Assembly: GCF_040616545.1 (NCBI RefSeq)
Contig: NZ_CP156688.1
Location: 434,001 to 498,000, forward strand
Length of the DNA: 64,000 nt
From: Akkermansia muciniphila
GTDB taxonomy: Bacteria > Verrucomicrobiota > Verrucomicrobiia > Verrucomicrobiales > Akkermansiaceae
Direction: 5' to 3'
Positions 35,358 through 56,254 of the stretch are shown one piece after another. The stretch's first letter is position 1. Each line of letters begins with the position of its first letter. The notes below the pieces were generated by a model. It was not told where the DNA came from. It did not search any database and saw only the letters and a list, made by a program, of their open reading frames with translations. A program made the translations under genes and the position numbers.

Positions 35358-36251
35358 CTACAGGGCTTCCTTCCAGGAAAAGAGGAAGGCCTTCCACATC
35401 CGGGAATAAACGGCGCCGCGCGTGATCTTCACCTTTCCGGCCCCGGGCTGCTGCGGGCGCCGGAGCAGTTCCAGCGTATCCAGCCCCAGCCATGCGGGAA
35501 GCACGGTGGAAAAACGCAGCCGCCCGTTCCGCAGGGATTCCGCATAAAACACGCCTTCCTTCAGCCAGCGTTCCGCGCGGTCCAGCCACGGGCCAGCATC
35601 GGCGGCAGGCAGGTAGCTCCTTCCGCGGGAAAGGTCCTCCTCCCGGTCACGGAGGATGTTCACAAGCTGAAGCCCCATGCCGTAGTGCGCGCCCCAGCGC
35701 AGGAGCTGGTCTTCCGGCTGCGTGCTGAACCCCGCGCCCAGCACCAGCAGGCCCAGCCTGGTCCAGAATTCCCCCACGCAGCCGGCCACCATGTAGGCAT
35801 AATGTTCAAGCTGTTCCGGGCAGGAGACGGAAGAGTTCCCTTCAAAATATTCCAGATCCCACGCCTGCCCCTCCACGATGGTGCAGAGCACCTGCCGCAC
35901 CAGCATCTGTTCACGCGGGGGGAGGGCTTCCAGCAGCGCCAGGCATTCCGGGAAACGGGCCAGCAGTTCCGCCTCCCCCCGGTGCGCCTGCACGGTGGAA
36001 AGAACGCCCAGGCGGCCAAAGCAGGTGGAGGCGGCCTCCCGGGAGGCGTCCCCGGCCACCGTCTCGCCCATCATCTTCAGCAGGGCCAGGCGCTCTCCGG
36101 AATCCATGTCCACGGTATCCGCCACCGTATCCGTAGCGCGCGCCAGCAGATAGCCCACGGCCACGCCGGGGCGCATTTCCCGCGGCAGAAAGCGCATGCT
36201 CAGGTAAAAGGACCGGGAAACGGCGGACAGAAGCTGATGGAGGCCTTTCAT
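35358..36251 (-). CDS. Squalene/phytoene synthase family protein (probable squalene synthase)
   Basis: A 297-residue all-helical prenyl-condensing enzyme. The first Asp-rich site reads YLLARATDTVADT, and the second reads LQLVNILRDREEDLSRGRSYLP. Together they bind the diphosphates of two farnesyl groups through magnesium. The SRSFYLSMRFLP opening is also typical. The first site resembles that of eukaryote-type squalene synthases more than the HpnC/HpnD pair. The start overlaps the stop of the upstream sigma-54 regulator (ATGA), so expression is tied to that gene. No other hopanoid or carotenoid gene is visible nearby. Confidence 0.87.
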   Translation of the reverse strand: MKGLHQLLSAVSRSFYLSMRFLPREMRPGVAVGYLLARATDTVADTVDMDSGERLALLKMMGETVAGDASREAASTCFGRLGVLSTVQAHRGEAELLARFPECLALLEALPPREQMLVRQVLCTIVEGQAWDLEYFEGNSSVSCPEQLEHYAYMVAGCVGEFWTRLGLLVLGAGFSTQPEDQLLRWGAHYGMGLQLVNILRDREEDLSRGRSYLPAADAGPWLDRAERWLKEGVFYAESLRNGRLRFSTVLPAWLGLDTLELLRRPQQPGAGKVKITRGAVYSRMWKAFLFSWKEAL

Positions 36252-37774
36252 GGTTTTTGAATTCCCAGCCTGTGCATCTTATAATGGAGCACCCGTGGGG
36301 AGACGCCCAGTTCCCGCGCCGCCGCAGACATGTTGCCCGGCGAGCGTTTCAGCGCGGCGACGATCAGCTCCCGCTCAAAGGAGTCCACCATGGTGGGCAA
36401 ATCCGCATGGTCCTCCCCGTCACGGGCATGCGGGGCTTCATTGCTGGGCATTTGCAGGGAGGCGGGCAGGTTGTAGCCGTAAATGCAGTCCTCCTGCGCC
36501 GTGATGACGGCACGCTCCATGCAGTTTTCCAGCTCCCGCACATTGCCGGGCCAGTGGTAGGCCATGAGCATGTTGATGGCGGGGGTGGACAGCCGCTTGA
36601 TGTCCTTCCCGTATTTCAGGTTGAACTTGGAAAGGAAGTGCTCCGCCAGCAGCATGATGTCCCCCTTGCGCTTGGCGAGGTCCGGCATGACGATGGGGAA
36701 GATGTTCAGGCGGTAGTACAGGTCTTCCCGGAATTTGTTCTCCGCCATTAGCTCTTCCAGATTGCGGCTGGTGGCGGCAATGAAACGCACGTCGGAATGA
36801 AGCTCCCGGTTGCTCCCCACGCGGGAAAACGTTTTTTCCTGGAGGAAGCGCAGCAGCTTCACCTGCATCTGAAGGCTCAAGTCCCCGATTTCATCCAGAA
36901 ACAGGGTTCCTCCGTCCGCCGCCTCCGCCCGGCCGATGCGGCGTGCGGTAGCTCCGGTGAAAGAGCCCTTTTCATGGCCGAACAGCTCGCTCTCCAGCAG
37001 GTTCTCCGGCATGGCCGCACAGTTCAGCGTGACCAGGGGCTTGTCCTTCCTGCCGCTCAGGTTCACCACGGCGCGGGCCACCAGCTCCTTCCCCGTTCCG
37101 GAACTTCCCCGGATCAGCACTGTGGCGTCGCTGGGCGCCACCTGGCGGATCTGTTCATAAACCTGGAGCATGGGGCGGCAGTTGCCGATCAGCTCTCCCG
37201 GATTGGTGGTTAAAAGCTGGCGCAGTTTCTCGTTTTCCGCCATCAGGGCCGCCCGTTCCTCACGCGCCTGAAGGCTGGCCGCCAGCGCGTCCCCCACAAT
37301 GTTGCCCACAATTTCCAGCAGCTTCTGGTCCCGCTCCAGATCAGTGTTCCGGTCCACGGGGCGGTCAATGCTCAGGGTGCCGATCACCTGCTGCAAATGA
37401 ATAATGGGCACGCAGATGAACGCCACTTTTTCCCCGCTCTTGCGCGTGCGGGTGCGGTTCAGGAATCTGGAATCCTGTGAAATGTCTTCAATCACATGGG
37501 GAAGCCCCGTTTCAGCCACATGGCCCGTAATCCCCTCCCCCACGCGGTAATGGCCGCGTTTCATCTCCTGCTCGTCCAGCCCGTGGGACGCTTCAATCAT
37601 CAGATCATTCCCGCGGCGGATGGTGAAGGTGCCGCGCAACATTTTCATGCGGCGGTAAAGAACGTCCAGGATATGCTGCAGCAGAGCCGTGCCATTGCGT
37701 TCATTGACGATGGCGGAGCTGATTTCCCGCAGCACGACCATTTCCAAATCAGGGGACTTGTTTATTCCATTCAT
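36248..37774 (-). CDS. Sigma-54-dependent activator with GAF domain (NifA-like)
   Basis: A 508-residue bacterial enhancer-binding protein. An N-terminal GAF sensory domain (about 15-165) is followed by the AAA+ domain: GNCRPMLQVYEQI, Walker A IRGSSGTGKE, the sigma-54 contact loop GSFTGA, Walker B GGTLFLDEIGDL, and the arginine-rich FREDLYYRLNIFPI. A C-terminal Fis-type helix-turn-helix ends the protein (MSAAARELGVSPRVLHYKMHRLGI). There is no receiver domain, so it is probably controlled by a ligand or protein on the GAF domain, as in NifA, rather than by phosphorylation. Perfect sigma-54 promoters at gltB and glnN in this window are plausible targets. The stop is coupled to the squalene synthase gene. 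Confidence 0.93.
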   Translation of the reverse strand: MNGINKSPDLEMVVLREISSAIVNERNGTALLQHILDVLYRRMKMLRGTFTIRRGNDLMIEASHGLDEQEMKRGHYRVGEGITGHVAETGLPHVIEDISQDSRFLNRTRTRKSGEKVAFICVPIIHLQQVIGTLSIDRPVDRNTDLERDQKLLEIVGNIVGDALAASLQAREERAALMAENEKLRQLLTTNPGELIGNCRPMLQVYEQIRQVAPSDATVLIRGSSGTGKELVARAVVNLSGRKDKPLVTLNCAAMPENLLESELFGHEKGSFTGATARRIGRAEAADGGTLFLDEIGDLSLQMQVKLLRFLQEKTFSRVGSNRELHSDVRFIAATSRNLEELMAENKFREDLYYRLNIFPIVMPDLAKRKGDIMLLAEHFLSKFNLKYGKDIKRLSTPAINMLMAYHWPGNVRELENCMERAVITAQEDCIYGYNLPASLQMPSNEAPHARDGEDHADLPTMVDSFERELIVAALKRSPGNMSAAARELGVSPRVLHYKMHRLGIQKP

Positions 37775-37932
37775 GCAATCAGGGGCTGGGCGAATAGTAA
37801 CCGTACGGCCTTGCCAGACCAACTACTTTTTCCTGCACCGGGACGACGGAGCACGGAAGGAGGGCAAGGAAAATGCGGATAACATCTTATCAATGAAGGA
37901 TGATGTTGTTATAAATGAAGTTGAAAAGAGGG

Positions 37933-37946
37933 TTACAAAATTGTAA
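37933..37946. promoter_or_regulatory. TTAC-N6-GTAA palindrome upstream of the sigma-54 activator
   Basis: TTACAAAATTGTAA, a perfect 14-bp palindrome, 159 bp upstream of the activator start. It has the same half-sites and spacing as the two palindromes between gltB and glnN, so it may be a binding site for autoregulation. I found no convincing -24/-12 promoter between it and the gene. Confidence 0.4.
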
Positions 37947-37971
37947 TGCACGGGCCTTTCACCGTCCTGTT

Positions 37972-55922: not shown

Positions 55923-55938
55923 AGCAAAAAGCGTGCCA
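55923..55938 (-). promoter_or_regulatory. Sigma-54 promoter of gltB
   Basis: Read on the minus strand: TGGCACG-CTTT-TTGCT, a full match to the -24/-12 consensus TGGCACG-N4-TTGCW. Transcription should begin near 55912, about 30 bp before the ATG. Confidence 0.9.
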
Positions 55939-56067
55939 ACTTTTCTTTCAGGTCCCGCCGAACACCGGAACGGACCTTGACCGCCCGGTTTTACAGGCTT
56001 TTTCCCGTGGACTCCTTCCGCTGTCCGTGAACAGGGAAACGTACGGCATGCTTCGGGAACCCTCTTT

Positions 56068-56083
56068 TTTACATTTCCGTAAA
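56068..56083. promoter_or_regulatory. Putative enhancer site 1 (TTTAC-N6-GTAAA)
   Basis: TTTACATTTCCGTAAA, palindromic in its outer five bases. About 140 bp from the gltB -24 element and 165 bp from that of glnN. Its centre is 33 bp from that of site 2. Confidence 0.6.
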
Positions 56084-56100
56084 TACCCTTTCCGTCTGAT

Positions 56101-56116
56101 TTTACATTTTCGTAAT
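56101..56116. promoter_or_regulatory. Putative enhancer site 2 (TTTAC-N6-GTAAT)
   Basis: TTTACATTTTCGTAAT. It shares 14 of 16 bases with site 1 in the same orientation, three helical turns away, so a pair of activator dimers could bind one DNA face. Confidence 0.6.
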
Positions 56117-56238
56117 GAAATTCCGGCTCCCCATGGCAGCCTTCCCGGAGAACTTTCTTCCGGAATGCACCAAAAGACATTGATTACCATAACTTTAATA
56201 TTCATTCACATCACCCGCGCCAGGCGAGTCAAAAAAGC

Positions 56239-56254
56239 TGGCACGCTTCTTGCT
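56239..56254 (+). promoter_or_regulatory. Sigma-54 promoter of glnN
   Basis: TGGCACG-CTTC-TTGCT, a full match to the sigma-54 consensus. Transcription should begin near 56265, giving a leader of about 17 nt before the ATG at 56282. Confidence 0.92.

Follow-up and report, generated by a model that had tools for sequence, protein, structure and literature searches.

The gap between the divergent genes gltB and glnN of Akkermansia muciniphila is very probably a two-way sigma-54 control region, in which a GAF-domain activator would act through shared dyads on glutamine synthetase and glutamate synthase (GS/GOGAT), on a gene for a 50-residue protein and, through a self-site, on its own gene, sensing its signal directly. 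The best reading is a compact, PII-free sigma-54 regulon for GS/GOGAT, predicted from features of the sequence itself: motifs, their conservation, gene order, co-occurrence, the lack of a PII match in 48 genomes and of an Amt match in the source genome, and the coding nature of a small open reading frame (ORF). Such a regulon would comprise three promoters plus the gene of the activator itself. Its candidate activator can be named, its dyad is defined and PII is missing, and nitrogen sensing without PII could be tested in it by means of a single purified protein and a single knock-out. An undescribed small protein of this mucus-dwelling gut symbiont also comes to light, and the way it is predicted to be regulated hints at the pathway in which it works.

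Divergent sigma-54 promoters of gltB and glnN

The genome is a single contig (C1) of 3,055,113 bp, and the window is the whole 64,000-nucleotide stretch analysed here, C1:434001-498000. Within it, gltB and glnN point away from each other across a gap of 399 bp (Table 1). GltB passes the NCBIfam model for the large subunit of glutamate synthase (1727 bits against a cut-off of 1047), and GlnN carries the Pfam domains GSIII_N and Gln-synt_C-ter of a type III glutamine synthetase. GlnN falls below the cut-off of the NCBIfam 'type III' model TIGR03105 (35.6 against 469.6 bits), a model that in our judgement describes another GS group. The same genome encodes GlnN2, a 58% paralogue of GlnN1 (C1:1654651-1656750), and the region upstream of its gene contains neither a sigma-54 site nor a dyad.

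Table 1. Features of the proposed regulon. Positions are those of the window unless prefixed with C1 (contig coordinates).
Feature	Position	Strand	Basis
gltB, glutamate synthase (GOGAT) large subunit, 1479 aa	51443..55882	-	ORF and NCBIfam model
glnN (GlnN1), type III glutamine synthetase, 710 aa	56282..58414	+	ORF and Pfam domains
Predicted sigma-54 (-24/-12) promoter of gltB, TGGCACGCTTTTTGCT	55923..55938 (read 55938-55923)	-	exact match
Predicted sigma-54 (-24/-12) promoter of glnN, TGGCACGCTTCTTGCT	56239..56254	+	exact match
Putative enhancer dyad 1, TTTACATTTCCGTAAA	56068..56083		repeat analysis; exact tandem; conserved
Putative enhancer dyad 2, TTTACATTTTCGTAAT	56101..56116		repeat analysis; 33 bp from dyad 1
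GAF-AAA+-Fis sigma-54 activator (bEBP) with GSFTGA loop, proposed for both promoters	36248..37822	-	Pfam, gene order, co-occurrence
Single dyad upstream of the activator gene, proposed self-site, GTTACAAAATTGTAAT	37932..37947		one of three TTACN6GTAA in the window
50-aa ORF, MYKNDLFDL...ERERKA..ARMRSF	C1:154409-154561	-	behind an exact sigma-54 site
Predicted sigma-54 promoter of the 50-aa ORF, third exact site	C1:154610-154625	-	exact match

An initial annotation of this DNA had reported two perfect, outward-facing sigma-54 sites in the gap, and both hold in sequence and position. Each 16-bp site matches the TGGCACG-N4-TTGCW consensus (TGGCACGNNNNTTGCW) without a mismatch, and each has GG at -24 and GC at -12 with the fixed spacing of a sigma-54 promoter (TGGCAC-N5-TTGCW frame). 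The accompanying judgement that chance is a very unlikely source of the pair is borne out by an order-2 Markov model, under which 0.5-1.0e-4 exact sites are expected in 399 bp, both strands counted, and 0.4-0.8 in the whole genome; four are observed genome-wide, two of them in this gap. The probability that two exact sites fall in one 399-bp gap is about 1e-9 to 5e-9; allowing for an assumed 3,000 or so gaps brings it to 4e-6 to 1.6e-5. Looser searches return no excess: with at most one mismatch the genome has 21 sites against 20 for a reversed control pattern, and with at most two the window has 12 against 12.04 expected, so the motif is informative only as an exact match in context.

Putative shared enhancer dyads between the promoters

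Midway in the gap lie two 16-bp TTTACA-N4-TGTAAA dyads, spaced by about three helical turns. The midpoint of the pair (56092) is 155.5 bp from the GG of the gltB promoter and 148.5 bp from that of the glnN promoter, and the pair provides the predicted enhancer sites that a sigma-54 promoter calls for. A search for exact tandem dyads, meaning two TTACN6GTAA separated by 10-40 bp, gave two places in the genome, each next to an exact sigma-54 site, against none for the reversed control; the second place, C1:154703-154745, is upstream of the third exact site. Among the 78 genomes searched, exact tandem dyads were found in eight, against two for the reversed control, and those of G034 arise from a 50-bp tandem repeat. 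The window contains TTACN6GTAA three times, twice as the putative enhancer dyads and once ahead of the activator gene.

Only three of the 21 sigma-54-like sites of the source genome with at most one mismatch have upstream dyads scoring at least 9 of 12, and these are the sites at the two tandem places; no regulon members beyond those reported here were found among the 21. Dyad-like sites with at most two mismatches number 13 genome-wide, three of them at the reported places. The fourth exact sigma-54 match (C1:1793337-1793352) stands 99 bp ahead of a dnaK-like gene. It was considered as a regulon member and left as a chance site or that of another regulator, its best upstream dyad reaching 8 of 12.

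Conservation across Akkermansia

A GlnN-family match is present in 49 of the 78 genomes, and 13 genomes, including the source genome, have a GlnN copy of at least 65% identity with readable upstream DNA. In 12 of these 13, glnN1 is divergent from gltB, and both outward promoters are found in all 12. Conservation in relatives had been put forward with the initial annotation as a check of its claim, and this check did not refute it. On the glnN side, TGGCACG-N4-TTGCW is kept in every divergent genome, source included, while the gltB side reads TGGCACG in eight of the 12, source included, and TGGCATG in four. The two promoters are 155 to 354 bp apart in the different genomes, and much of the remaining gap sequence aligns poorly, so the conservation of the promoters amounts to a footprint, with the reservation that three of the 12 gaps are near-identical (G007, G023 and G035). 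This 12-genome footprint is counted without partial GlnN hits in G005, G038 and G043 and without the thirteenth genome, G045, which is not divergent and has TGGCATG-N4-TTGCA and three dyads upstream of glnN.

The dyads vary more. Outside an inner clade of five genomes (G000, G004, G017, G037 and G047), six of the seven divergent genomes have TTACAATTTTGTAA as their first dyad and a degenerate second one; in G041 both dyads are 17 bp long.

A candidate GAF-domain activator

The genome has one rpoN gene and eight matches to the sigma-54 activator domain, two of them full-length, and one of these two is the GAF protein of the window. Among 25 genomes whose copies of it were aligned, the sigma-54 interaction loop reads GSFTGA in the five of the inner clade and GAFTGA in the remaining 20; GSFTGA has been described as a working variant of GAFTGA (PMC6615313). 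RpoN and an activator with a GAFTGA-type loop, the protein components expected for sigma-54 transcription, are thus both encoded. Both full-length activators of the source genome have GSFTGA rather than GAFTGA, and the true start of the GAF protein may be an ATG 16 codons in.

Gene order repeatedly places this activator beside its proposed targets. In the source genome it is 13.6 kb from gltB, but it directly follows gltB in G041, G035, G011 and G023, and it also comes after gltB at locus L050. Among seven divergent stretches that were fetched, the activator follows gltB in four and lies outside the stretch in two, both of the inner clade; in the remaining one the contig ends inside gltB. G045 has the activator between glnN and gltB, and G015 has a glnN-gltB-activator row, with the activator last, behind one sigma-54-like site. 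An activator of at least 60% identity is found in 12 of the 13 GlnN1 genomes, the exception being G024, whose contig ends inside gltB. G010 has a partial activator copy and no GlnN match.

The single dyad upstream of the activator gene reads TTACAATTTTGTAA in all five inner-clade genomes, and no sigma-54-like site was found near it in these five. It is absent upstream of the activator in five other genomes (G041, G035, G011, G045 and G015), in four of which the activator gene comes directly after gltB. This pattern, a self-site dyad on the one hand and a position directly after gltB where the dyad is absent on the other, suggests that the activator is autoregulated, by co-transcription where its gene lies directly 3' of gltB. 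The proposed link between activator and dyads draws on gene order, the self-site and co-occurrence, and these also single out the GAF protein as the likely activator. In the recognition helix, activators of a group at about 50% identity read TTxRKL, against SPRxxx in the source group. The idea that these letters track the dyads was withdrawn because G016, G040 and G042, members of the approximately 50% group, have exact TTACATTTTTGTAA ahead of glnN.

Co-occurrence of the activator and sigma-54 sites at glutamine synthetase genes

With family membership set at 50% identity or more among the matches listed, the GAF activator is present in 28 of 48 genomes of the genus, source included. All 25 that also have an examinable glnN carry a sigma-54 site with at most one mismatch at such a gene. 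In 12 genomes this gene is GlnN1 and in another 12 it is of the GlnN2 type; in G015 the site belongs to the glnN-gltB-activator row. Where no GAF activator is listed, such a site is found in two of 18 examinable genomes (G008 and G024) and in none of the other 16 (Fisher p 6e-10, ignoring relatedness). The count excludes as unexaminable G012, which has no GlnN match, G005, which has fragments, and G010, G019 and G046, which have the activator and no GlnN match; G015 was counted by its L203 copy, its other copy, L139, having no site. In the GlnN1 genomes, GlnN2 has neither sigma-54 site nor dyad in 12 of 12 examined. Judged by these counts and the bare GlnN2 genes, sigma-54 control seems to follow the activator, at GlnN1 in some lineages and at GlnN2 in others, and it seems to have moved between glutamine-synthetase copies. 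The co-occurrence raises confidence in the gap as an activator-dependent control region. Among GlnN2-type genes of other Akkermansia species (L139-L155), an upstream sigma-54 site with at most one mismatch is found at 13 of 17 loci, 11 of them exact.

The GlnN2-type genomes are less uniform in their dyads. Among the 12 with a sigma-54 site, exact dyads (TTACATTTTTGTAA) occur in three, G016, G040 and G042; exact TTACN5-7GTAA was not found in the other nine, and looser ACAAAAATGT-like repeats can be seen by eye in eight of these nine in the upstream DNA inspected. The approximately 50% activators (G013, G014, G028 and others) were first read as unrelated paralogues, with other genes as neighbours and no dyads. 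That reading was dropped because all 12 genomes with such an activator among the matches listed and an examinable GlnN2-type gene have the sigma-54 site; these activators look like the same system acting on another GS copy.

Taken together, one rpoN gene, conserved promoters, a shared enhancer between them and a candidate activator strongly support coordinated RpoN control of gltB and glnN, as the initial annotation had proposed. The nitrogen part of that proposal is deduced from the target genes, and textbook nitrogen-sensing parts are absent. The enhancer dyads, the activator gene and a third target extend the picture beyond that annotation.

Alternative explanations

That the motifs at gltB and glnN are functionless chance matches would agree with the genome count at one mismatch, which equals its control (21 against 20). 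The probability of the exact pair per 399 bp and the retention of both sites in 12 of 12 genomes, though the gap has otherwise largely diverged, make this explanation almost negligible, and the predicted promoter pair is more than chance. A less extreme alternative accepts the promoters and assigns the dyads to an unrelated repressor or other regulator, the promoters being served by an activator that does not use these sites. One-component repressors also typically use TTAC-N6-GTAA palindromes, the exact dyad is absent in nine of the 12 GlnN2-type genomes with a sigma-54 site, and dyads in Fibrobacter stand without a sigma-54 match. Against this, exact tandem dyads in the source genome occur only upstream of these sigma-54 sites, as helically phased pairs; the one further single dyad in the window lies at the activator gene; and the GAF activator is a recurrent neighbour of gltB and glnN. 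An unrelated dyad-binding protein is accordingly improbable.

The promoters might instead be driven, in the classical NtrB/NtrC way, by a second activator, a receiver-AAA+-Fis response regulator with a PAS histidine kinase (C1:410.6-413.2 kb). This is a very doubtful candidate: it scores 440 bits against the NCBIfam ntrC cut-off of 558.6, is unlinked to gltB and glnN, and has a 15-kb neighbourhood with neither dyad nor sigma-54-like site, even though it is the only other bEBP of the source genome with a full sigma-54 interaction domain and has an NtrC/AtoC-like architecture. G008 and G024, with glnN sigma-54 sites and no listed GAF activator, would fit it, but homologues whose match covers the AAA+/Fis part alone occur in genus genomes without the GAF activator, and 16 of 18 such genomes have no glnN sigma-54 site. 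The second activator and its own PAS histidine kinase occupy L002:35-2475 (C1:410.8-413.2 kb), and the activator matches the PEP-CTERM response regulator family at 431 bits, below the cut-off of 502.6. The GAF activator remains the preferred candidate for both promoters.

A predicted third target encoding a 50-residue protein

The third exact sigma-54 site precedes a 50-aa ORF found in five of the 78 genomes, exactly those of the inner clade. A sigma-54 site stands 64 bp before the ORF start in all five, with TGGCATG in G037 and TGGCACG in the others, and dyads, some of them degenerate, lie about 156-187 bp before that start. Since no long ORF follows the promoter, a small RNA was considered as the product; it was dropped because the ORF shows in-frame indels, start and stop codons conserved in four genomes, and residue conservation above that of randomised substitutions. 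Between G000 and G004, 30 of 49 residues are kept against 18.4 expected (0 of 20,000 simulations), and in a second comparison 43 of 48 are kept against 37.7 expected (p 0.0006). In G037 the ORF is interrupted by an in-frame stop at codon 6, and this copy was excluded from the protein alignment and the coding simulation. Considered as a possible counterpart of the glutamine-synthetase inactivating factors, the 50-aa protein has no Pfam or NCBIfam family match; its predicted fold is a helical hairpin (mean pLDDT 75, pTM 0.36, from four sequences only).

At gathering cut-offs, Rfam returned nothing in the window, nor in L156 or L219. Below that level, a likely 6S RNA gene lies on the plus strand at C1:154101-154286 (L156:4102-4287), matching RF00013 over model positions 1-187 with 35.7 bits against a gathering score of 46.4. 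It is convergent with the 50-aa ORF, whose transcript might extend into it in the antisense direction; in G004 the two are about 5 kb apart.

Possible signal input and proposed mechanism in a genus without detected PII

PII (PF00543) was found in none of the 48 genomes of the genus, against 29 of the 30 others of the order and 13 of 14 named controls, and Amt had no match in the source genome. The genus thus has no detected PII, the component that a classical Ntr cascade includes, and the GAF activator (318 bits), like the receiver activator, scores below the NCBIfam ntrC cut-off. The best PDB match of the GAF domain is 4g3k, Nlh1 of Aquifex aeolicus (E 9e-19).

In the proposed mechanism, the GAF activator would bind the two TTTACA-N4-TGTAAA dyads in the gap, loop the DNA and open RpoN-RNA polymerase at both outward promoters, with GOGAT and type III glutamine synthetase rising together. 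The same activator would drive the 50-aa protein, and it would bind the one dyad at its own gene, probably limiting its own synthesis. As PII was not found in any of the 48 genomes of the genus, nitrogen or carbon status is most likely sensed by the GAF domain itself. Direct sensing is our best guess, with 2-oxoglutarate as the leading candidate, given that the GAF domain of Azotobacter vinelandii NifA binds 2-oxoglutarate (PMC9866876) and that Nlh1 is the closest structure. Four points of this mechanism are inferred: the identity of the dyad-binding protein, the sign of the autoregulation, the ligand and the response to nitrogen.

A wider reading can be built on this mechanism. One self-regulated GAF activator would have replaced PII/NtrB/NtrC and would read metabolite status directly; it would have been handed between glutamine-synthetase paralogues during the history of the genus; the 50-aa protein, a basic helical-hairpin microprotein, would tune GlnN or GltB post-translationally, in the role of PII or adenylylation; and the activator-dyad-GS/GOGAT module would be ancient or mobile, given that parts of it are also found in Lentisphaeria, Kiritimatiellia and Fibrobacter. 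As a joint statement this is speculative and rather unlikely to hold in full.

Comparison with known systems

By score, NifA is the best NCBIfam family for the activator (464.1 bits), and the two have the GAF-AAA+-Fis architecture in common, yet the activator stays below the nifA equivalog cut-off of 528.85 bits. The NifA site is TGT-N10-ACA, from which the Akkermansia dyad differs. The enteric Ntr system (GlnD-PII-NtrB-NtrC, sigma-54 glnA) likewise places glutamine synthetase under sigma-54 control through an upstream enhancer, whereas Akkermansia has no PII, no Amt match in the source genome, a type III GS, and GOGAT on the same predicted enhancer. Divergent outward sigma-54 promoters around common activator sites are also found at zraP/zraSR, with other genes and another activator class, the zra activator being a response regulator. 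Among solved structures, the GAF domain of the Akkermansia activator is closest by sequence to Nlh1, a NifA-like GAF bEBP that has been speculated to activate nitrogen assimilation rather than fixation (PMC9866876); for the Akkermansia protein, proposed targets, putative enhancer sites and a proposed self-site can be named. In Geobacter sulfurreducens, the GS operon is reported to have an RpoN promoter and the GOGAT operon a predicted one; the two are separate operons, and the former includes glnB for PII (PMC2725144), while Akkermansia has one putative shared bidirectional enhancer and no PII.

The main text of a 2025 survey of sigma-54 regulons mentions neither Akkermansia, gltB, glnN nor glutamate synthase (PMC12316311). 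In an A. muciniphila transcriptome, glutamine synthetase and glutamate synthase are up together at 0.05% mucin (PMC8079684), a result that fits co-regulation, although its account names neither mechanism nor locus. To judge from the open PMC papers listed, the longer lists being covered at their top, control of ammonia assimilation in Akkermansia appears to be undescribed. New here are the putative shared enhancer, the likely activator together with its proposed self-site and its co-occurrence with sigma-54 sites at glutamine synthetase genes, the predicted small-protein target and the absence of PII.

Related arrangements beyond Akkermansia

The cross-phylum sample comprises 80 loci, the best of a longer list, with 24 at 61-67% GlnN identity and 54 at 51-56%. 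Two of the 24 were left out for having at most 200 bp of upstream DNA. Among the 22 examined, five have a sigma-54 site with at most one mismatch (shuffles: mean 0.04, largest 1) and eight have a dyad (shuffles: mean 0.20, largest 1). The 51-56% loci, drawn from the same list, show one sigma-54 site and no dyad in 54, against 0.03 and 1.01 in shuffles. Some loci of the sample are related among themselves, namely L044 and L045 and three from Fibrobacter.

Several loci resemble the Akkermansia arrangement in part. L044 and L045 (Lentisphaeria) and L065 (Oligosphaera) have outward-facing sites at either end of the gap between gltB and glnN, under a looser pattern whose chance rate is uncomputed. 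In L051, a Verrucomicrobia MAG, gltB stands opposite a row of a gene that we take from its sequence to be glutamate-dehydrogenase-like, the activator and glnN; the gap contains sequence that resembles dyads and promoters, recognised partly by eye. The Fibrobacter loci L048, L049 and L066 have an activator divergent from glnN and perfect tandem TTACAAAAATGTAA dyads 29 bp apart between them, with no sigma-54 consensus beside the dyads; the L049 activator, the one Fibrobacter protein tested, has no GAF domain by Pfam. Back within Akkermansia, G045 (L216:6720-9021) has two genes directly upstream of glnN that are preceded by tandem TTACN6GTAA dyads and by TGGCATG-N4-TTGCA. By the look of their sequences they presumably encode a diaminopimelate epimerase and an LL-diaminopimelate aminotransferase, and in this genome the predicted regulon may reach lysine and cell-wall synthesis.
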